A DNA stretch of 21,677 nt from a virus. Of this stretch, positions 1 through 16,142 are shown piece after piece. The number at the start of each line of letters is the position of its first letter. Position 1 is the stretch's first letter. Under the pieces are notes generated by a model. The model had not been told where the DNA came from, ran no database searches, and was given only the letters and a program-made list of their open reading frames with translations. The DNA lies in IMG/VR virus record IMGVR_UViG_3300006752_000274, positions 1 to 21,677 of that record. One strand, written 5' to 3'. The translations under genes were made by a program, and so were the position numbers.

Positions 1-780
1 CAAACGGAACCTAAAGCAGATACATGGAAACAAGTTAGCTTTCCTGCGATCCTCGACTCAGGGAACCCAGTATGGCCAGAGTATTGGGAACTAGATGATT
101 TAGAAAAAGTCAAAGCGTCTATTCCTATTCGTAACTGGTCTGCTCAGTATATGCAAGAACCTACTTCGGAAGAAGGAGCGATTATAAAACGTGAATGGTG
201 GCAAGCGTGGAAAGGGGACTCAGTTCCAAATCTGGTACATGTGATACAAAGTTATGATACAGCGTTTAGTAAAAAAGAAACTGCGGACTATTCTGCTATA
301 ACGACATGGGGTATATTTTATCCTGATGAAGCTACCCCTCATATAATTTTACTGGATGCACTACGAGGTAAATATGATTTTCCTGAGTTAAAGGTTGTAG
401 CATTAGATGCGTATAAATATTGGGAACCTGAAACAATTATTATAGAACAAAAAGCTAGTGGTGAACCTTTGACACAAGAATTTCGTAGAATGGGTATACC
501 TGTTGTTCCGTTTACACCGACACGAGGTAATGATAAACATGCAAGAGTTAACTCGGTAGCTCCTTTATTTGAAAGCGGGTCTATTTGGTATCCACATGGA
601 GAAAAGTTTGCAGATGAAGTAATGGACGAATGTGCAGCGTTTCCTCACGGAGCTAATGATGATTATGTAGATAGTATGTCCCAAGCACTTCTTAGGTACA
701 GACAAGGTAACTTTGTTGAGTTATACTCTGATTATGTGGATAATGAGGATGTTCCACCAAAACAATACAATTATTACTAG
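1..780 (+). CDS. terL: Terminase large subunit, C-terminal nuclease part (5' truncated)
   Basis: The reading frame is open from base 1, so this is the last 259 residues of a longer protein; the first in-frame ATG at 151 is internal. The N-terminal ATPase domain with the Walker motifs lies outside the window. What remains matches the RNase H-like nuclease domain of phage terminases (Terminase_6C type). An Asp sits in SYDTAFSK (residue 86 of the fragment), a Glu in IIIEQKASG (149), and an Asp cluster in NDDYVDSM (220-224). These are the expected metal-binding acids. The protein would cut concatemeric DNA while docked on the portal, which is encoded 3.9 kb downstream. Its stop overlaps a strong ribosome-binding site for the next small gene. 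Family assignment is confident; the packaging mode (cos or headful) cannot be told from this part. Confidence 0.93.
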   Translation, partial: QTEPKADTWKQVSFPAILDSGNPVWPEYWELDDLEKVKASIPIRNWSAQYMQEPTSEEGAIIKREWWQAWKGDSVPNLVHVIQSYDTAFSKKETADYSAITTWGIFYPDEATPHIILLDALRGKYDFPELKVVALDAYKYWEPETIIIEQKASGEPLTQEFRRMGIPVVPFTPTRGNDKHARVNSVAPLFESGSIWYPHGEKFADEVMDECAAFPHGANDDYVDSMSQALLRYRQGNFVELYSDYVDNEDVPPKQYNYY

Positions 781-788: not shown

Positions 789-896
789 ATGAAAAAAATC
801 AAAAGAAAGATTAAGAAGGCGTATAGCTTTTGTAAGATAAAATTAAGCTGGGTTAAAAAAAGATTATTTGGTAAGCTTTGTAAATGCGATGAGTAG
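789..896 (+). CDS. Small basic protein, 35 residues, function unknown
   Basis: This ATG-to-TAG frame encodes 35 residues beginning MKKIKRKIKKAYSF and ending KLCKCDE. Almost a third of the residues are Lys or Arg, mixed with aromatic and aliphatic residues, so it could form a short cationic amphipathic helix. There are three Cys, two of them in a C-terminal CKC. It is supported by a consensus AGGAGG placed four bases before the ATG and by its tight fit between terminase and the next gene, whose ATG (889) overlaps its last codons. I do not recognise a function. DNA binding, membrane interaction or a role as a translational-coupling leader are all possible. Confidence 0.6.
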   Translation: MKKIKRKIKKAYSFCKIKLSWVKKRLFGKLCKCDE

Positions 897-3618
897 TTTT
901 TTCTTTAAGAAAATAGCCCAAGGTTTAGGAAGCCTGTTAAAGAAGGGTCCAAGGAAAGAAGAGCTACCGACTAAAGTAGAAGACTTAGATATTTTAGATG
1001 CCCCCTTATCTCAGGAACTAGTCACTACGCCTGAAATACAAAAGCAACAAGTAGATGTAGCAGAACTTAAACGTATTGCACGAATAAAAAAAGATGCTAA
1101 TGATTTAAAGTTTGCAACGGAACGAAATCCTTTGCAAAAAATTACACCAAAAGACCCTACGTATATTGAAGGTAGTGATCCTTATTTCACGAGGGGCTTG
1201 GTTCAAGATTTCGATAAAGGTAGCAAGTCTATCTTACCACGGGCCTCGGTTCTTAGGGAACAGATTATAGCACACCCGAACAACGAACCACTGAGCCCGA
1301 ATGAGTGGGTTAAGTGGATACAAAGACGTATGAACAAATCTGTAAACTATTCTGATGAAAATACTTTAAACAAAATGGATTTGTCTATAAAGCAAACAGA
1401 AATTGATGATGCAAATTTATTTAAAACTAAATCTCAGTTTAGTAAAGAAGTATTACAGGCTATAGATATAGGAGATGATCCTGAAGTAGCTTTAGCTATA
1501 GATAAGTTTAGACAACGCTATGGTCAGAAAGAAGCGAAAAAATATTTGGATACTATAAAAAAAGATTTAAAACAAGATGTGGCTTCAGGTAAAAATGAGT
1601 TGGTAGGTGGTTATTTAAAAGCAGCACAAGACCAAGGTAAAAAAATATCTAAGCAAGAATTAATAAAAGTAGTAGAGAACAATCCGTTGTATCACGGAAG
1701 ACTAACACATTTAAAATATGACGATAGAGCAGAAGGAGCTTTAGAAGGTGGGTTAGATAAAATAGAAAAAGAATACCTTAACTTACAAAAATATATCGAT
1801 GATACGAATGAGGAGATTTCAAAATTTCTAGAAACCGATAACGATTTTAAATTAATAGAATCAAAAGATGCTCTTGGTAAAACTGTTCAAGGATACTCTA
1901 AGAAATATTCTAAAAAATTAAAAGATCAGATAGAAAAATATCAAGCAGATTTAAAAAAAATATCTAATCAAATATCCACAGTAGATGTTAAATCTAAATT
2001 TATGATGGAGCAACCTATAGATGTTTCGGGTGTTACTGTAATGGACAGTATGTATTCAAATAAATTACGTAAAGTAAATGGAGGTAGACTTGATGTAGAT
2101 ATATCAGGTGCAAAAAATACTGTGCAACAAATTATAAATAGTCTTGGCCCAAGACAAGCAGCTATAGAACAATTTTCTTTTTTGAACCAATCAGTTTACC
2201 CTAAAAAAATTGCTGAAGGCCCACAAATTTTAAGCAACGTATTTAGTAAGCTTAGAGAACTAGAAGAAAAAACAATAAAAGGTTATCTTAAAAAGTCTAA
2301 AGAAAATTTATATCCAGGTTATAGAAACTATATAGACTATGTCGTTGGTGGTGAACAAAAGTATGGAGAAATTGTTTTTAATATACCTGAGCATAATAAA
2401 AATTTCTTTAATGCTGTAGAAACAAACTCACAACATATGGGTGCGAGTCACTTGGGTACTACTAATGAATCTATAGATAGAAATTTTACACAAATTATTA
2501 GAGATAATGTTTCTGAAAAAGGTGGGAAGATGCCTAGATTACAAGATAGAGTTACACGATTGCAGGTAAACCCTGTGTATTTTTCAAGATACACTACTCA
2601 AAAATTAGATAACGGAGATAGTGTTATAATGATTAACGAACTACAGTCAGATTTTGGACAGAACTTAAGAAGATTAAAAGAGGAAGGAATAGAAAGAATA
2701 AACCCTTATAATACAGAATTTTTTTCAGGAGCTGCTGAAGAAGGAGCGTATGTAAATCAAAAACTACAAGATATTCAAAAAAGATTAGAAGGTTTAGATG
2801 ATGTTAGAATGGAAAAAGGTTTGTTAACAGATCCACAAAATAAAGAATATAGAGAATTATTGTTAGATGCTATGGTAGAAGAAAAGAAATTTAAAAAAGG
2901 ATTTAGTGGAGAGCAAAAAGATATGTTAAGTGCGTACAAAACTACAAATCAAGAAAAAAGATACCCCTATCTACCTTTATCTAGTATGCAAGGCGTATCA
3001 GATCATGCTGTTAAAACTTATGCAAAAGTAGCTTCAAAAGATTTGCCTGAAGTAACACATATCGCTGTGTATCCTGTAGAATTTTTACATGCTAGAAAAA
3101 GAGGTTTAGATAAAGCTCCTAATTTTATCCAGTACGGAACTCAACAAGGAAAAGCTGGTGTTAAAGATGCTGAAGGCACTATAGGTCTTCCTAGTAAAAG
3201 TTCAACGCTAATTAAAGCTATGGAAAAGTTTGCTAAAGATTATGGAATTGATCTTGAAAAAAGATTGGTATCCCGTTCAGATCCAGATAAACCTTATAAG
3301 TTAGTTTATAAAAAAGGGTCTAGAGAAGATAATAATATTAATCAAGGTAGAGGTAAAAAATTTTTCCCAAAGATGAAAAAGTACGAAGAACACTATGCGT
3401 CCTTTGCCACAGACAAAGAAGCTATAAGAGCGTTACGAGTTGCAAAAAAAATAAATAGAGATATTTCTCTTAAACTAATAGATAAGTTAAAAGACGGAAA
3501 ACCTAACCCTGAGCTGTATGACGAAATGATAACTTTACCAATACCTAATGATATGCTAGATTTACCTACTAAAGGATATTTCAAAGGGGGACTAGTAAGG
3601 TCAGGTTTTAAATGGTAG
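889..3618 (+). CDS. Large protein with ELQSD motif, polyvalent-protein-like
   Basis: A 909-residue hydrophilic protein between terminase and portal. I chose the ATG at 889, which overlaps the stop of the 35-residue gene; an in-frame TTG at 868 would add seven residues. The N-terminal half is Lys/Glu-rich and likely helical (around residues 180-380). The C-terminal half is more globular and carries INELQSDFGQ with Glu at about residue 584. After it come a PYLPLSS segment, a strand-like THIAVYPVEF, a YGTQQGKAG segment and an Ile/Lys-rich helix ending in YGIDLEKR. From memory, this order resembles the 'ELQSDWHQ' region of large polyvalent proteins of phages and conjugative elements, which are often injected with the DNA. 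That link is inference. The C-terminus (YFKGGLVRSGFKW) resembles the Lys-Gly-Gly tails of the neighbouring basic proteins. It could be an ejected internal head protein. Confidence 0.8.
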   Translation: MSSFFFKKIAQGLGSLLKKGPRKEELPTKVEDLDILDAPLSQELVTTPEIQKQQVDVAELKRIARIKKDANDLKFATERNPLQKITPKDPTYIEGSDPYFTRGLVQDFDKGSKSILPRASVLREQIIAHPNNEPLSPNEWVKWIQRRMNKSVNYSDENTLNKMDLSIKQTEIDDANLFKTKSQFSKEVLQAIDIGDDPEVALAIDKFRQRYGQKEAKKYLDTIKKDLKQDVASGKNELVGGYLKAAQDQGKKISKQELIKVVENNPLYHGRLTHLKYDDRAEGALEGGLDKIEKEYLNLQKYIDDTNEEISKFLETDNDFKLIESKDALGKTVQGYSKKYSKKLKDQIEKYQADLKKISNQISTVDVKSKFMMEQPIDVSGVTVMDSMYSNKLRKVNGGRLDVDISGAKNTVQQIINSLGPRQAAIEQFSFLNQSVYPKKIAEGPQILSNVFSKLRELEEKTIKGYLKKSKENLYPGYRNYIDYVVGGEQKYGEIVFNIPEHNKNFFNAVETNSQHMGASHLGTTNESIDRNFTQIIRDNVSEKGGKMPRLQDRVTRLQVNPVYFSRYTTQKLDNGDSVIMINELQSDFGQNLRRLKEEGIERINPYNTEFFSGAAEEGAYVNQKLQDIQKRLEGLDDVRMEKGLLTDPQNKEYRELLLDAMVEEKKFKKGFSGEQKDMLSAYKTTNQEKRYPYLPLSSMQGVSDHAVKTYAKVASKDLPEVTHIAVYPVEFLHARKRGLDKAPNFIQYGTQQGKAGVKDAEGTIGLPSKSSTLIKAMEKFAKDYGIDLEKRLVSRSDPDKPYKLVYKKGSREDNNINQGRGKKFFPKMKKYEEHYASFATDKEAIRALRVAKKINRDISLKLIDKLKDGKPNPELYDEMITLPIPNDMLDLPTKGYFKGGLVRSGFKW

Positions 3619-3649: not shown

Positions 3650-4012
3650 ATGGGTAAAATGAAAGCAGGAAAAGATGCGTTTGATATATTAGCGTCAAAA
3701 ATTAAAGGACCTCAGGCTGATGAGCTATTTGATAAAGGCTCTGATTTAGTAAGAGATTTTGTAAGCGGTAAAATAAATTTATCTACTGTAAAAGGTCAAT
3801 TAAGAGATAGAATAAAGAAATCTATAAAAAAGAAAAAAAAATCTGAAGGTGAAGCAAGAGAAGCTGGTTATTTAAAAGAGTCTGACAAAAAAGCAGCAGA
3901 TTCGAAAAAGAGAATTATGGGTTTTAAAAAAACAGGAGGTTCTGTTAAAAAGAAAAAAGTAGCTAAAATGAATAAAGGCGGTATGGCTGACTACTATAAA
4001 GGAATGGTGTAA
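3650..4012 (+). CDS. Lysine-rich basic protein with KGGM...YYKGMV tail
   Basis: A 120-residue protein with a good Shine-Dalgarno (AAGGAG, 3637-3642) eight bases before its ATG. The first 50 residues look like a small folded helical region (DAFDILASKIKGPQADELF). The rest is dominated by Lys, with runs such as KKSIKKKKKS and VKKKKVAKM. Two Gly-Gly motifs follow Lys/Thr-rich stretches, and the protein ends NKGGMADYYKGMV. Almost the same tail ends the protein at 15385-15672. The stop overlaps the next ATG as TAATG, implying coupled translation. It lies between the ELQSD protein and the portal, so a head or DNA-associated role is plausible, but I recognise no named family. Confidence 0.8.
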   Translation: MGKMKAGKDAFDILASKIKGPQADELFDKGSDLVRDFVSGKINLSTVKGQLRDRIKKSIKKKKKSEGEAREAGYLKESDKKAADSKKRIMGFKKTGGSVKKKKVAKMNKGGMADYYKGMV

Positions 4013-4650
4013 TGACTAAAAGTGGCGTAAGAAAAGGCAAAGACTTTGTAAAAAATATGGAAAAGCTTAAAAAGATTTATGGTGGTAAAATACCGAAAAG
4101 TCTTTCTATTGATGAAGCTGATAAAGTATTAAAAAAAGTTACACCTATTAAAAGAAAAAAAGGAGGTAAAGCAACTAAAGAAAAAGTATCTCCAATGGGT
4201 TCTGATAATACTGTTAAAGGAGCTTTAGCTGAAGTAAACCGTATGTTAGATAAAAAAGCTCCTGACCTTACTAGAGCAGAGAAGATAAAACTTAAAGCTA
4301 TTAAAACAAAAAGATTTATGAAAAGTTTAGGAGGTTTTAAACCACCCATGAGATTTAAATCTGGCGGTGTATCAAAAAAGAAAAAGAAAGATCCTGTTAC
4401 TTCAAGATACCAAAAAATTCGTAATACGATATTAGCAGCTCCTGAAGCTGTAGAGATCGGTAGAGAAATTTTACAAAGTTTACCGATGAAAAAAGGTGGT
4501 ATGAAAAGATTAAAACCTATTCCTCCAGAAAATAAAGGGTTACGTAAATTACCAAGAGCTGTTAGAAATAAGATGGGTTACATGAAGAAAGGTGGAAGCA
4601 CTACAGCTAAATGTAAGTTAGGAAGAAACAAACCTACTAAATTATTATGA
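4012..4650 (+). CDS. Lysine-rich basic protein with repeated K-G-G motifs
   Basis: A 212-residue, very basic protein started by an ATG that overlaps the previous stop by one base. Short Lys/Gly-Gly motifs occur at intervals: KRKKGGKAT, RFKSGGVSKKKK, MKKGGMKRLK and MKKGGSTTAK. Between them are helical segments such as LAEVNRMLDKKAPDLTRAEK. The interval between motifs varies, so this is a scattered linear motif rather than a tandem repeat. There is no signal peptide or membrane segment. The end overlaps the portal ATG as ATGA. It may be an internal head or DNA-condensing protein; function is not known to me. Confidence 0.8.
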   Translation: MTKSGVRKGKDFVKNMEKLKKIYGGKIPKSLSIDEADKVLKKVTPIKRKKGGKATKEKVSPMGSDNTVKGALAEVNRMLDKKAPDLTRAEKIKLKAIKTKRFMKSLGGFKPPMRFKSGGVSKKKKKDPVTSRYQKIRNTILAAPEAVEIGREILQSLPMKKGGMKRLKPIPPENKGLRKLPRAVRNKMGYMKKGGSTTAKCKLGRNKPTKLL

Positions 4651-6983
4651 TAGAAAATGAAGAAGTAATTACAGAGGAAGAGGAAAGTCCTAATATAGAA
4701 ATTGAAGAAGAAGAGCAGATTCAAGAAGAACCTACTCAAGATTTTTCACAAGAACAGCAAGCTATTGAGTTTTACGGAAACTTAGCCGAACAAATTGATG
4801 AGCGTGTTCTTGGACGTATGGCTAGTGATTTGGTTTCTGATTACAAAAAAGATAAAGAATCAAGAGCTGATTGGGAAAAGTCTTACATAAAAGGTTTAGA
4901 TTTATTAGGGTTTAAGTACTCAGAAGAAAGTCGTCCTTTTGTTGGAGCTAGTTCTGTAACACATCCTTTATTAGCAGAAGCTGTTACACAATTTCAAGCA
5001 CAAGCCTATAAAGAATTACTTCCCTCTAACGGTCCTGTAAAAACACAAGTAATAGGTGAAAGAAACCCAGAAAGAGAACAACAAGCTCAAAGAGTAAAAG
5101 AGTTTATGAATTATATGTTGACAGACAAAATGGAAGAGTACACTCCTGAGTTTGATCAAATGCTTTTTTATTTACCCTTAGCTGGATCTACTTTTAAAAA
5201 AGTTTATTTTGATGAAGTTATAAAAAGAGCTGTTAGTAAATTTATACCAGCAGAAGATTTAGTGGTACCTTACTACGCAACAGATTTAAAAGACTGCGAT
5301 AGAATAACACACATTATTAAAATGAGTGAAAACGATATTCTTAAAAAACAAAGAGCAGGTTTTTATAGAGAGGTAGATATTTTACCATCCCGTTCTGATG
5401 ATAGTGATGTTCAAGATAAGTATAATCAGATTGAAGGCACAAGTGATACAGACGACAGAGATTATCAATTTAATATTCTTGAAATGCACATAGATTTAGA
5501 TTTAGAAGAATATGAAGTTGATGAAGATTTAAAAAATATTAAAGTTCCTTACATTGTTACTATCGATGAAGGTTCTCAAGAAATATTATCTATATATAGA
5601 AACTACAAACCTACTGATGAAACTTTTAAAAGAAAAGATTTCTTTGTTCATTTCAAATTTTTACCTGGATTAGGTTTTTATGGTTTTGGTTTAATACATA
5701 TGATAGGAGGCTTATCAAGAGCCGCAACTTCTGCATTAAGGCAATTATTAGATGCAGGAACTTTAGCAAATTTACCAGCTGGTTTTAAATCAAGAGGTAT
5801 AAGAGTTCGTGATGACGATCAACCTTTTCAACCAGGTGAGTTTAGAGATGTAGATGCTCCGGGAGGAAACATAAAAGATCAATTTATGTTGTTACCTTTT
5901 AAAGACCCGAGTCAAACTCTTTTTTCTCTTTTAGGTTTTGTGGTACAAGCAGGCCAGCGTTTTGCTTCTATTGCTGATATGCAAACAGGCAATGATAAAC
6001 AAAACAGAGCTGTTGGTAGTACTTTAGCTTTACTTGAACGTGGTTCAAGAGTTATGAGTGCTATTCACAAACGTTGTTATTATTCAATGCGACAAGAATT
6101 TAAACTTTTAGGAAATGTTTTTGGAACATATTTACCTCCAGTATATCCTTACGCAGTATACGGTGGTAATAGGTTTGTTAAAATGGCTGATTTTAGTTCT
6201 GAAGTAGATGTATTACCTGTAGCTGATCCTGATGTATTTTCTTTATCGCAAAGATTTACTTTAGCACAGACTCAGTTACAAGTTGCTTCTGCGGCTCCAC
6301 AATTACATGATATGAGAGAAGCGTATTATAGAGTGTATGAAGCATTGGGAACAAAACAAATTGATAGCTTATTAAAACCAGCTCAAAAACCTGTACCTTT
6401 AGATCCAGCTATCGAGAACAGTAATGCTATGAAAATGGTTCCTTTAAAAGCTTTTATGCAGCAAGATCATGATGCTCATATACAATCACACACAGCTTTT
6501 ATGAATACACGTATGGTTCAGATAAACCCACAAGTATATTCTTCTTTACAAGCTCACATTATGGAACACATATCATTTAAAGCTAGAGCTATTGTGTTAT
6601 TAGAGATACAAAATGATCAAAATTTAGTTCAAATGTCTAAAGCAGACCCAGAAAACTTTGAAGCATTAACGGATTCTATGATAGCTAAACAAATCGCTGA
6701 GTTAACACAAAGCTTAACTAATTTAGAAGCAGGTTCTTCAAAACCTGACCCACTTGTAGCTTTAAAACAAAGAGAGTTAGATTTAAAAGCTCTTGATTTA
6801 CAAAGAAAAGCTCAAGAATTTAGTGATGTAGAAACTAGAAAAAATGAAGAGTTTGATGAAAAGATAGATTTAGAAAAAATGAAACGAGAAGATGCAGAAT
6901 TTTCCTCAAGCGAAAGAATTAGAGTAGCAGATCAAAAAATAGATATTATGAGGGACAAAAATGAAAAAGAAAACAAGCAATAA
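4647..6983 (+). CDS. Portal protein
   Basis: A 778-residue protein, long for a portal but in the range of P22-like portals. The N-terminal 40 residues are very acidic (Glu/Gln-rich). The core starts near residue 70, with ASSVTHPLLAEAVTQFQAQ followed by KELLPSNGPVKTQ and a segment on conserved Phe/Tyr residues; I remember this arrangement from portal proteins of marine podovirus-like phages. FLPGLGFYGFGLIHMIGG near residue 340 and the following helix (SRAATSALRQLLDAG) fit the portal stem and long-helix region. The last 100 residues are a charged Gln/Lys/Glu helix (LKQRELDLKALDLQRK), probably the C-terminal barrel or coil. It forms the dodecameric DNA gate to which terminase docks. ATG overlaps the upstream stop (ATGA), and the end overlaps the next gene by 23 bases. 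Confidence 0.9.
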   Translation: MIENEEVITEEEESPNIEIEEEEQIQEEPTQDFSQEQQAIEFYGNLAEQIDERVLGRMASDLVSDYKKDKESRADWEKSYIKGLDLLGFKYSEESRPFVGASSVTHPLLAEAVTQFQAQAYKELLPSNGPVKTQVIGERNPEREQQAQRVKEFMNYMLTDKMEEYTPEFDQMLFYLPLAGSTFKKVYFDEVIKRAVSKFIPAEDLVVPYYATDLKDCDRITHIIKMSENDILKKQRAGFYREVDILPSRSDDSDVQDKYNQIEGTSDTDDRDYQFNILEMHIDLDLEEYEVDEDLKNIKVPYIVTIDEGSQEILSIYRNYKPTDETFKRKDFFVHFKFLPGLGFYGFGLIHMIGGLSRAATSALRQLLDAGTLANLPAGFKSRGIRVRDDDQPFQPGEFRDVDAPGGNIKDQFMLLPFKDPSQTLFSLLGFVVQAGQRFASIADMQTGNDKQNRAVGSTLALLERGSRVMSAIHKRCYYSMRQEFKLLGNVFGTYLPPVYPYAVYGGNRFVKMADFSSEVDVLPVADPDVFSLSQRFTLAQTQLQVASAAPQLHDMREAYYRVYEALGTKQIDSLLKPAQKPVPLDPAIENSNAMKMVPLKAFMQQDHDAHIQSHTAFMNTRMVQINPQVYSSLQAHIMEHISFKARAIVLLEIQNDQNLVQMSKADPENFEALTDSMIAKQIAELTQSLTNLEAGSSKPDPLVALKQRELDLKALDLQRKAQEFSDVETRKNEEFDEKIDLEKMKREDAEFSSSERIRVADQKIDIMRDKNEKENKQ

Positions 6984-7671
6984 AAAAAGTAAAAGCTCTA
7001 AATTTTTAAATGTAGCCTCTACGGTGTTTGAAACTGTTGGTAAAACTCCTTCTAACCCAATTAGACAAGATAAAATACCTTCTTTAGCTAATTTTAAGGC
7101 AAAAATTAGATCAAAACGATCTCAATCAGGTAGAAAAAAAATGTTTCCTATGCCTTATGAAATAAAAAAAGCAAAAAAAGGTAAAATTATGGAAAAACCT
7201 TTAAATCCTTCAGTAGCTAATAAAGTTGTAGATAAAATTATTAAAAGTAAAAAATATTCTTATGTTAATAGAGCAATGAACCCTAAAACGCCTACTAAAA
7301 ATAACCAAACTTTGAGAACAATGGGATCAGATGGTAAATTATTTCCTACTATACGAATGGTTAAAGGTAAATTAAAACAATACAAACCCAAAGAAGCTAT
7401 TAAAATAACCAAAAAGAAAAAAGATGCAATTAATGTAACTAACATAGCACCAACTTATGTAAGCACAAAAGATGTGTCTTTAGCTTTGTCTGATAGAATA
7501 GGTAAAGCAAGAGGAGCCCCACCAAAAAAAGGACCTTTACCACAAGGTTTAAGAATAGGAGCTATTTCAGATTTAGGTTGCCCTCATCGTGAAAATGGTG
7601 TACAAGGTAGTGATATACAAGGAGTAAAACCCTTGCAAACGAAAGGTAAAAAATTTACTGGTGTTAAATGA
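6961..7671 (+). CDS. Lysine-rich basic protein with FTGVK terminus
   Basis: A 236-residue, highly basic protein whose ATG lies inside the end of the portal gene. Lys-rich stretches (MKKKTSNKKSKSSKF, ITKKKKDAI) alternate with Pro/Ser segments, and there is no hydrophobic core long enough for a membrane helix. The C-terminal part contains GAPPKKGPLPQGLRIGAIS and CPHRENGVQGSD, then ends KKFTGVK. The last five residues match the pattern seen at the ends of three other basic proteins in the window (aromatic, K/T, G, aliphatic, any). Its stop overlaps the next start as ATGA. No family recognised; probably virion-associated by context. Confidence 0.78.
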   Translation: MKKKTSNKKSKSSKFLNVASTVFETVGKTPSNPIRQDKIPSLANFKAKIRSKRSQSGRKKMFPMPYEIKKAKKGKIMEKPLNPSVANKVVDKIIKSKKYSYVNRAMNPKTPTKNNQTLRTMGSDGKLFPTIRMVKGKLKQYKPKEAIKITKKKKDAINVTNIAPTYVSTKDVSLALSDRIGKARGAPPKKGPLPQGLRIGAISDLGCPHRENGVQGSDIQGVKPLQTKGKKFTGVK

Positions 7672-8273
7672 TTGCTGGCGATTCTTTAGAATACGAATTT
7701 ATAACAGAAGAAATAGAAAAGTTAAAACTGAACGATATAGTTCTAACTTGCGAAATAGGATTGAGAAGAGGGCTTGGTTCTAAAACGATAATGGACGCTG
7801 TAATATCTAAGGGAGCAGTTTATTATAGACATATTGCTGTTGACCCTTATGGTAATTTAAATTACCAGCATTATGATGACGGTATTCCCACTACAGCAGA
7901 CTACACTGATTACATGAAAGTTGAAACCTTAGTAGACTTACATAAGTACACACAGTTTGCTTTTTTTGAGTTTCCAGATACTTATTTTTTTAAAGTTATG
8001 AAAGATGGTTATCCTTTAACTGTTGATGGAAAAACATATCTACATAATAAATATTCTGTAATTCATTTAGATGGCCCACATACTACTTTAGCATTAAATC
8101 AACAGATACAATTTTGTATGCGAAACATGGAAGACGAAAGTTTAATTATTATAGACGATTACCAAACATTTAACATGACTTCTATTGATTGGTCTTTACA
8201 AAAAATTGGATTTAAAGAAGTTCGTAGAGGAGATCGTAAATTAATTTATAAACGACATGATGAAAACATTTGA
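7668..8273 (+). CDS. Class I SAM-dependent methyltransferase-like protein
   Basis: A 201-residue protein resembling the Methyltransf_24 family. A glycine-rich motif CEIGLRRGLGS (residues 28-38) fits the SAM-binding motif I, with an acidic residue following the next strand in HIAVDPYG (Asp59). VIHLDGPH (131-138) and LIIIDDYQTF (159-168) fit the later strands of the Rossmann-like fold, with the usual paired Asp. The substrate is not clear: the catalytic motifs of DNA adenine or cytosine methyltransferases (DPPY, PCQ) are absent, so a small molecule, sugar or protein is more likely than a DNA base. It sits between a basic protein and the lysis/head genes and is coupled to both neighbours by overlaps. 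Confidence 0.72.
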   Translation: MIAGDSLEYEFITEEIEKLKLNDIVLTCEIGLRRGLGSKTIMDAVISKGAVYYRHIAVDPYGNLNYQHYDDGIPTTADYTDYMKVETLVDLHKYTQFAFFEFPDTYFFKVMKDGYPLTVDGKTYLHNKYSVIHLDGPHTTLALNQQIQFCMRNMEDESLIIIDDYQTFNMTSIDWSLQKIGFKEVRRGDRKLIYKRHDENI

Positions 8274-14737: not shown

Positions 14738-15385
14738 ATGACTAAATTATGTCCAAGAGGAAAAGCAGCAGCAAAACGTAAGTTCAAGGTATACCCCTCG
14801 GCCTATGCAAATGCTTATGCTTCCAAAATATGTGCAGGTAAAGTAAAAGACCCTAGTGGCACAAAAAGAAAAGACTGGGGTCCTAAAAAAGCTAAAAAAG
14901 GAGCTATGATGAAAAAACCTAAAAAAGCAGCAAAAGGAATGTTAATGCCGTTATTTGGAATAGCGGGTATGGCAAAATTTATGCAAATGAATAAAAAAAA
15001 GAAAGGAACTGTAAAGGCTGATCAAGTAAATCCTGTAACTGGTGAAGGTATGGATCAAGCTAATAATAACCTTTCTCCTACCGCTCAAAAAGGGATACAA
15101 GCTGTTAAAAGTATGGGAAAGTTTGGTGCAAAAAAAGGTGGTATGAAAGTAAAAAAAGCAGGTCTTGGTCTTATGATGGCTATGGGTAAAAAAAATAGAA
15201 GAAAAATGGGAAAGCAGATGAAAAGAAGTAAACTAAATATACTTTCTCCCGGATTATATGGAATGACTCAGTTAAGTGATGGTGGTATGCCAAAAAATAC
15301 AGGTTCTTATATAAAACAAGATATTGAAGGTGAAAGTTTTACAAATGAATCTGCTCAAGCTTATTATAAAGATCTTCTTGACTAA
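14738..15385 (+). CDS. Lysine-rich protein with LCPRGKAAAKRKFKVYPSAYA start
   Basis: A 215-residue basic protein. The N-terminal part MTKLCPRGKAAAKRKFKVYP, then SAYANAYASKICAGKVKDPSG, matches a short conserved phage module that I remember from many marine phages. The middle is Lys/Met/Ala-rich with MLMPLFGIAGMAKFMQM as a hydrophobic patch, and AKKGGMKVKKAGLGLMMAMG. A Gly-Gly-Met motif recurs in LSDGGMPKNTGSY. It ends AYYKDLLD, close to the YYKG tails of two other proteins here. Stop and next ATG overlap (TAATG). Role unknown; position within the head/neck operon suggests a virion protein. Confidence 0.78.
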   Translation: MTKLCPRGKAAAKRKFKVYPSAYANAYASKICAGKVKDPSGTKRKDWGPKKAKKGAMMKKPKKAAKGMLMPLFGIAGMAKFMQMNKKKKGTVKADQVNPVTGEGMDQANNNLSPTAQKGIQAVKSMGKFGAKKGGMKVKKAGLGLMMAMGKKNRRKMGKQMKRSKLNILSPGLYGMTQLSDGGMPKNTGSYIKQDIEGESFTNESAQAYYKDLLD

Positions 15386-15672
15386 TGTCTGGATTAAAAA
15401 AATGGTTTGATCAAAAATGGGTAGATATTGGAAGTAAAAAAGCTGATGGTACATTTGCAAAATGTGGACGAAGTAAACAAAAAGCTGATGCTAAAAGAAA
15501 ATACCCAAAGTGTGTTCCTTTAGCAAAAGCAAGAGCTATGTCTGAGGGACAGAAGAAAAGTGCTGTAAAAAGAAAAAGAGCAAAAGCTCAAGGAGTTGGA
15601 GGTAAGCCGACAAATGTAAAAACTTTTGCAGCTAAAGGCGGAATGATTAATTATTATAAAGGGTTAATATAA
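15385..15672 (+). CDS. Basic protein with KKW.D.KWVDIG module and KGGM...YYKGLI tail
   Basis: A 95-residue protein. MSGLKKWFDQKWVDIGSKK, then KCGRSKQKADAKRKYPKCVP, then RKRAKAQGVGGKPTNVKTF form a compact basic module that I remember as DUF5872-like in phage proteins (from memory). Three Cys occur in FAKCGR and YPKCVP contexts. The last 13 residues, AKGGMINYYKGLI, match eight of 13 positions with the tail of the protein at 3650-4012. The coupling by TAATG on both sides is exact. Function unknown. Confidence 0.8.
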   Translation: MSGLKKWFDQKWVDIGSKKADGTFAKCGRSKQKADAKRKYPKCVPLAKARAMSEGQKKSAVKRKRAKAQGVGGKPTNVKTFAAKGGMINYYKGLI

Positions 15673-16142
15673 TGTCTAGAATGAAAGAATTAAAATCTTT
15701 AGCAAAACAAGCTAAAGAACAAAAAAACAAAGAAAAATACGAAGAGATTCGTGGGGACATATTTAGAGAATTTGACTTTGATATAGGTAAGTTTGGTTTA
15801 GGTGGTCTTTTATATAAAAAAGGTAAAAAGTTATTAGAAAAATCAGGTTTAATTGATGACCTACCTTCTATGTATCGTAAAATGCGAGATGCTAAAGATA
15901 AAGGTGATTTTAAAAAATTTAAAAAATACAAATCTAAATCTACAAACGTAGTAAAAGATAGTAAAAGTATGAAACAGTTTCAAAAAGAGTTAGATGAAGA
16001 TTTACCTTTACCAAAAAATTTTAAACCAACTAAAAAGAAACCAGAAGGTAAAGTAGTTAGTATAACAAAAAAAAGTATGGGTGGTGAAGTTAGGGGTATT
16101 GGTAAAGCTATCAGAGGTTTTAATTTTAAGGGTGTTAGATAG
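15672..16142 (+). CDS. Lysine-rich helical protein with FKGVR terminus
   Basis: A 156-residue protein rich in Lys, Glu and Asp (MSRMKELKSLAKQAKEQ, KYEEIRGDIFREFDFDIG). The first 100 residues may form two or three helices; the remainder is Lys/Pro-rich and ends MGGEVRGIGKAIRG followed by FNFKGVR. The final residues fit the pattern at the ends of other basic proteins. Stop and the next GTG start share a base (TAGTG). No recognisable domain; location before the neck genes suggests a virion or assembly role. Confidence 0.75.
   Translation: MSRMKELKSLAKQAKEQKNKEKYEEIRGDIFREFDFDIGKFGLGGLLYKKGKKLLEKSGLIDDLPSMYRKMRDAKDKGDFKKFKKYKSKSTNVVKDSKSMKQFQKELDEDLPLPKNFKPTKKKPEGKVVSITKKSMGGEVRGIGKAIRGFNFKGVR

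Follow-up and report, generated by a model that had tools for sequence, protein, structure and literature searches.

Large polyvalent proteins have been described as injected, multi-domain proteins that carry enzyme domains, and two RimI-like GNAT families have been described among them (Iyer et al., 2017, PMC5512222); the EIQSD motif, which marks the domain considered here, is not mentioned in the main text of that article. In phiKMV-like phages, the GNAT Rac is reported to acetylate RNA polymerase (PMC7824862), and Rac and the RimI-like polyvalent GNATs provide a precedent for injected or early phage acetyltransferases that modify host proteins. The third system that invites comparison is that of the T7-type ejection proteins gp15 and gp16, which are required and conserved core components of the virion.

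An ELQSD protein between TerL and portal

The 21,677-nucleotide stretch of viral DNA that was analysed here (IMG/VR record IMGVR_UViG_3300006752_000274; hereafter, the window) encodes a large protein for which the initial annotation gave a length of 909 residues and a place between terminase and portal. Both statements hold: the frame 889-3618 is open and the TerL and portal flanks are matched in PHROGs (Table 1). Translation could start at TTG 868, yielding 916 aa, or at ATG 889, yielding 909 aa, with the end at 3618 in both cases; the residue numbers used below (E591 and others) follow the frame from TTG 868. Two small basic genes lie between this frame and the portal gene, and the operon that holds the gene is of the TerL-portal-GroES-scaffold-capsid type. 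The 43-kb contig IMGVR_UViG_3300025128_000097 encodes an identical protein. Judged by portal and TerL, the named phages closest to the window virus, which is marine and SAR11-phage-like, are the Pelagibacter phages HTVC023P and HTVC027P. Elsewhere in the window, a class I methyltransferase-like gene (7668-8273; Methyltransf_24, E 3.5e-6) follows the portal gene and keeps the same place in many relatives, and small Lys-rich proteins with repeated KGG motifs are encoded at 3650-4012, 4012-4650, 14738-15385, 15385-15672 and 15672-16142.

Table 1. Window coordinates of the ELQSD protein, its parts and its flanking genes
Feature	Position	Strand	Basis or remark
TerL, C-terminal part (upstream flank)	1..780	+	phrog_38 E 4e-52; Terminase_6C
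ELQSD protein ORF	868..3618	+	single open frame
N-terminal amphipathic segment VSFVNAMSSFFFKKIAQGLGSLLKK	868..945	+	hydropathy
N-terminal region, residues about 27-466	946..2265	+	alignment A1
EIQSD domain, residues 467-916	2266..3615	+	GNAT-like by structure prediction of homologous minimal domain
ELQSDFGQ motif	2638..2661	+	beta strand end and start of next helix (model)
Helical hairpin after motif strand, residues about 600-700	2665..2967	+	model
C-terminal tail YFKGGLVRSGFKW	3577..3615	+	most slot relatives have the conserved form GGLVVxxF(K/A)
Portal protein (downstream flank)	4647..6983	+	phrog_1216 E 1e-47

The ELQSDFGQ motif, on which the initial annotation centred, is a true translation of the window sequence, and E[LI]QSD arises in only 0.26% of shuffles of the protein, so that its occurrence is more than chance. 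The conserved domain that it marks spans about 330-450 aa, and the conserved alpha/beta region reported to follow it is seen both in the alignment and in the structural model. The N-terminal region is partly conserved in the family as YxxWxxx..E..DaNi..GGYLK..ll..P (alignment A1). Near the N-terminus, a hydrophobic helix rich in Gly and Ala, with basic residues after it, is present in most relatives that occupy the same TerL-portal slot and is lacking in L009 and L010; the window protein has a weaker, amphipathic counterpart, its best 19-residue hydropathy being 0.83 compared with 1.2-1.9 in most slot relatives. The C-terminal tail is real and conserved in the family. Its claimed likeness to those of the basic neighbours (KGGMADYYKGMV and KGGMINYYKGLI) is a weak, short-motif resemblance because many proteins of these phages have tails that contain GG (8 of 27, 14 of 71 and 13 of 80 proteins). 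A shared sorting signal formed by the K-G-G tails was considered and is not claimed here, since unrelated proteins of the same phages often have GG tails.

The EIQSD superfamily and its genomic contexts

Searches of Pfam, PHROGs, NCBIfam and PDB sequences with the window protein, and likewise with its relatives, returned sub-threshold matches only, and the window protein contains neither a library LPD domain nor a Pfam domain. None of Pfam, PHROGs and NCBIfam models the EIQSD domain as such, which explains why no ELQSD-family match emerges from these libraries. The initial annotation had named such a result as one that would count against it; this is literally true of the three libraries, whereas our own profiles find the superfamily. 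The partial exception is PHROG 7348 ('endolysin', 2564 positions), in which positions about 1805-2077 match canonical EIQSD proteins. We note that this 'endolysin' PHROG includes the EIQSD domain (match at L168:9412-11754), a region for which a lysin function is not supported; another domain of the giant proteins is the probable source of the label, and the 'lysin' annotations in Nostoc and Microcystis phages may stem from the same PHROG.

Some of the contigs chosen by their portal genes encode divergent homologues of the window protein in the same slot. The motif takes the forms ELQSD, ELQGD, EHQLD, EMQFD, EAQSD, EVQDD and EIQSD in alignment A1, with E591, Q593, D595 and Q598 invariant. A search with A1 retrieved at least 208 slot relatives, mostly with EIQSD(Y/F)xQ and GGLVVxxF tails, and a DNA pattern for EIQSDWHQ gave at least 120 matches in viral contigs; a tblastn search with the slot proteins in 50,697 phage genomes gave no match. 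The canonical EIQSDWHQ proteins share PGGENYREVLLTLP, HxRxxDR, EEIQSDWHQxGRxxG, PFKKxWxELAxKR, GYDxIAxTxG and GFYDKxLPxxLxKxGKKxGAxV. A profile built exclusively from canonical proteins matches slot relatives with E 2e-18 to 1e-6, including the 50%-identical relatives L005 and L006 at E about 4e-6, with the window protein itself scoring weakly; conversely, a profile built exclusively from 11 slot proteins retrieves 64 canonical EIQSDWHQ loci at E<1e-5. When the two groups are compared directly, hhalign reports a probability of 98.6% (E 6e-16) across 130 columns, the motif not being among them. The later iterated profile includes both the slot and the canonical groups and is therefore not counted as independent evidence. 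As judged from these profile comparisons, the slot and canonical proteins are homologous, and the window protein belongs to a broad EIQSD(W/Y/F)xxQ superfamily that we define here.

Seven positions, E, R, E, Q, D, Q and P, are invariant in 79 aligned sequences, and the window protein retains all of them (E501, R574, E591, Q593, D595, Q598 and P703), that is, the complete set E, R, E-x-Q-x-D-x-x-Q, P by which we delineate the superfamily. The near-invariant H90, R96 and W138 (A5 numbering) are lost in the window protein.

Most relatives have the gene order TerL > EIQSD > portal. T7-type phages have the arrangement tail tube > (internal proteins) > EIQSD > internal virion protein > fibre, with gp34 of Pelagibacter phage HTVC028P as an example; in Pseudoalteromonas phage PH1 the EIQSD gene follows TerL, and in one myovirus it is located between portal and GroES. 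Giant EIQSD proteins carry LPD22, LPD3 with LPD22, InPase with LPD1, or InPase with LPD39 and Peptidase_M15_3. On a Pseudomonas plasmid the domain lies inside a 5000-aa protein annotated as LPD23, and on a Variovorax plasmid an EIQSD gene adjoins DotD/TraH and other T4SS genes. Solo forms of 440-610 aa are encoded in bacterial genomes (L334-L358; for example, L337:7975-9633 and L356:7993-9675), in particular those of Thiodiazotropha, Sedimenticola, Accumulibacter, Dechloromonas and Methylotenera. The L337 gene is flanked by genes of ordinary metabolism and signalling, for an AMP-binding enzyme and for a histidine kinase, and no phage genes were recognised around it. Two EIQSD domains are present in single proteins of L211 and L291 (Dolichospermum phage Dfl-JY45), and a 9.6-kb contig (L117:1-9624) has two portal genes and two EIQSD genes, or pieces of them, arranged in tandem, possibly as a result of duplication or an assembly artefact.

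The likeness to large polyvalent proteins proposed initially thus applies to the superfamily, in which the giants carry LPD1, LPD3, LPD22, LPD39, InPase and one annotated LPD23, and the window protein and its relatives are encoded among virion or T4SS genes. It does not extend to a library LPD domain in the window protein: polyvalent proteins have two to fifteen recognisable domains per chain, a range in which the giant relatives fall. The window protein is at most two-part, consisting of the N-terminal region and the EIQSD domain, the latter its one recognisable conserved domain.

Predicted fold of the EIQSD domain

The window domain, modelled with a 93-sequence alignment (A2), reached pLDDT 78 and pTM 0.74. 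Compared with the PDB, this model had no significant match, and matches to the long helical hairpin took up its second-look list; compared with predicted viral structures (BFVD), it had 13 matches at E<=1e-3, all large phage proteins, three of which are named 'Large polyvalent protein associated domain'. Because the hairpin, which is short or variable in canonical members, filled the match list, a minimal canonical relative with short insertions (L286) was modelled with AlphaFold2 and a 79-sequence alignment (A5), giving pLDDT 91 and pTM 0.84. In a Foldseek search of the PDB with this model, 49 of the best 50 rows are GNAT folds, with a best E of 1e-3, so that no single row is significant alone. 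The best 50 VIA rows are all GNAT, with Z 7.2-9.1 (for example, AtaT 9.0, KacT 8.8, TacT2 8.6, GCN5 8.3 and NatD 8.0) and about 110-130 residues aligned at an rmsd of 3-4 A; Z near 8 can reflect a common arrangement, and the argument rests on how uniform the list is across the entire model. The order of elements in the domain, strand - helices - strand - strand (EIQSD) - helix - strand (YDxIAW) - helix (FYD..LP..L.K) - strand - strand, appears to follow that of GNATs.

By fold, the nearest described proteins to the minimal EIQSD domain are GNATs, including the AtaT, KacT and TacT toxins, GCN5, NatD and the C-terminal domain of ICL2. Unlike these, the EIQSD domain has large insertions between the core strands, a different set of invariant residues, and no sequence match to GNATs: profiles A3 and A5 found no GNAT among PDB sequences, and the classical CoA motif R/Q-x-x-G-x-G/A is absent from the canonical members and from the window protein. 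After the motif, canonical proteins have EIQSDWHQxGRxxGY (QxGRxxGY), and the window protein has ELQSDFGQNLRRLKEEG (QNLRRLKEEG). In 63 of the 79 sequences the canonical FYD motif includes its Tyr, a residue with no clear counterpart in the window protein; Y756 was considered for this role, which alignment A5 does not support.

RimI-like GNATs in general are recognised by Pfam GNAT models, whereas none of the GNAT models of Pfam, NCBIfam and PHROGs matches the EIQSD domains studied here. The EIQSD domain appears to be novel as a family, as compared with the published description of the RimI-like GNAT families of PMC5512222.

The models suggest that the window domain is GNAT-like in its predicted fold; we do not file it as a GNAT because it lacks the classical CoA motif and no confident match was obtained with the model of the window domain itself, the GNAT core beta-alpha fold being predicted for the minimal homologous domain. 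An enzyme-like fold is what the initial annotation had surmised for the C-terminal alpha/beta region, and, by these models, the window protein probably works like a GNAT-type acyltransferase.

An optional cargo gene and its possible function

In a survey of 80 portal-selected contigs, of which 59 include both ends of the TerL-portal slot, the EIQSD gene is present in 12 of the 59 complete slots of close relatives, and 47 contain no large gene. Other large proteins occupy this slot in HTVC027P (gp41/gp42), 023Pt_psg01 and DSL-LC04 (a protein annotated as PcfJ-like), as seen in L084, L085 and L086, as if this were a general cargo site. The optional presence of the EIQSD gene in close relatives argues against an essential structural part, and it fits cargo better than a required structural part; no structural-protein match is among the structure-search rows listed. 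The initial interpretation is supported in part, as regards the polyvalent-type superfamily and an enzyme-like fold.

The reading that best accommodates these observations, to which we assign a probability slightly below one half, is that of an accessory, virion-carried, injected GNAT-like effector. Under this reading, an optional cargo gene in the head-gene operon encodes a protein with an N-terminal segment and a C-terminal GNAT-like EIQSD domain, which would be synthesised late, become packaged along with the head in the vicinity of the portal, and leave the virion together with the DNA. The membrane-active N-terminus may aid arrival in the cytoplasm; by analogy with ejection proteins, the N-terminal helix could help the ejected protein to meet the inner membrane. 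Once there, the GNAT-like domain would draw on the invariant E501, R574, E591, Q593, D595 and Q598 to acylate some host or defence component at an early stage of infection.

The strongest of the alternatives, which we consider doubtful, is a virion ejection or pilot protein that forms or lines the DNA ejection path, with the GNAT-like domain as a catalytically dead scaffold. The EIQSD proteins resemble T7-type gp15 and gp16 in gene position, in that the gene of T7-type relatives (HTVC028P gp34) lies among internal core genes, before a gp16-like internal virion protein and the fibre, and in the N-terminal membrane-type helices of most slot relatives, membrane-spanning segments being common in ejection proteins (PMC8954989); the missing canonical CoA motif and the loss of several near-invariant residues in the window protein are also compatible with a dead domain. 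However, ejection proteins are required for infectivity (PMC8954989), in contrast to a gene that most close relatives lack, and the EIQSD protein belongs to a different fold family, with no sequence similarity to gp15/gp16 found. Furthermore, invariant polar E, R, E, Q, D and Q across very divergent sequences resemble an active site, and the domain is found as well in solo chromosomal genes and on a T4SS plasmid.

A late-infection intracellular enzyme or chaperone that is never injected and takes part in head maturation or in modification of portal or capsid is rather unlikely. The location of the gene inside the TerL-portal-GroES-scaffold-capsid operon, owing to which the protein is presumably made late, is in line with such a role; against it, close relatives with the same head genes dispense with the gene, and the conjugative and polyvalent-type proteins that contain the domain are alike in delivery, not in head assembly. 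A moron-like gene that merely occupies a permissive TerL-portal site, unrelated to virion or injection, appears very unlikely: the slot is indeed variable, with other large proteins or nothing in some relatives, but the same gene holds it across many divergent phages and resides among core genes in T7-type phages. An ADP-ribosyltransferase or another toxin-type effector domain, a fold that the initial annotation proposed to look for, is highly improbable despite the large size, the head-gene position and the existence of polyvalent relatives, a few of them with ART domains in other parts of the chain (PMC5512222), given that no ART is among the Foldseek and VIA matches listed for the L286 model (pLDDT 91), the 50 VIA rows being GNAT throughout, and that the strand order and the terminal beta5-alpha4-beta6-beta7 pattern suit GNATs.

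Returning to the injected effector, we tentatively extend this reading to the whole superfamily, a proposal that may well not hold in full: EIQSD domains might constitute a widespread, undescribed GNAT-fold family with a non-classical donor site, that is, an injected acyltransferase of phages and conjugative plasmids that is deployed either within polyvalent proteins or as stand-alone TerL-portal cargo. The domain is frequent in uncultivated viruses, as reflected in the counts of EIQSDWHQ matches and slot relatives given above, and rare in cultured phages. The GNAT-like reading would make many 'hypothetical' head-operon proteins, some of them from SAR11 phages, candidate injected acylators of protein or RNA, and the slots with and without the EIQSD gene would provide a comparison system for the role of such cargo in early infection.
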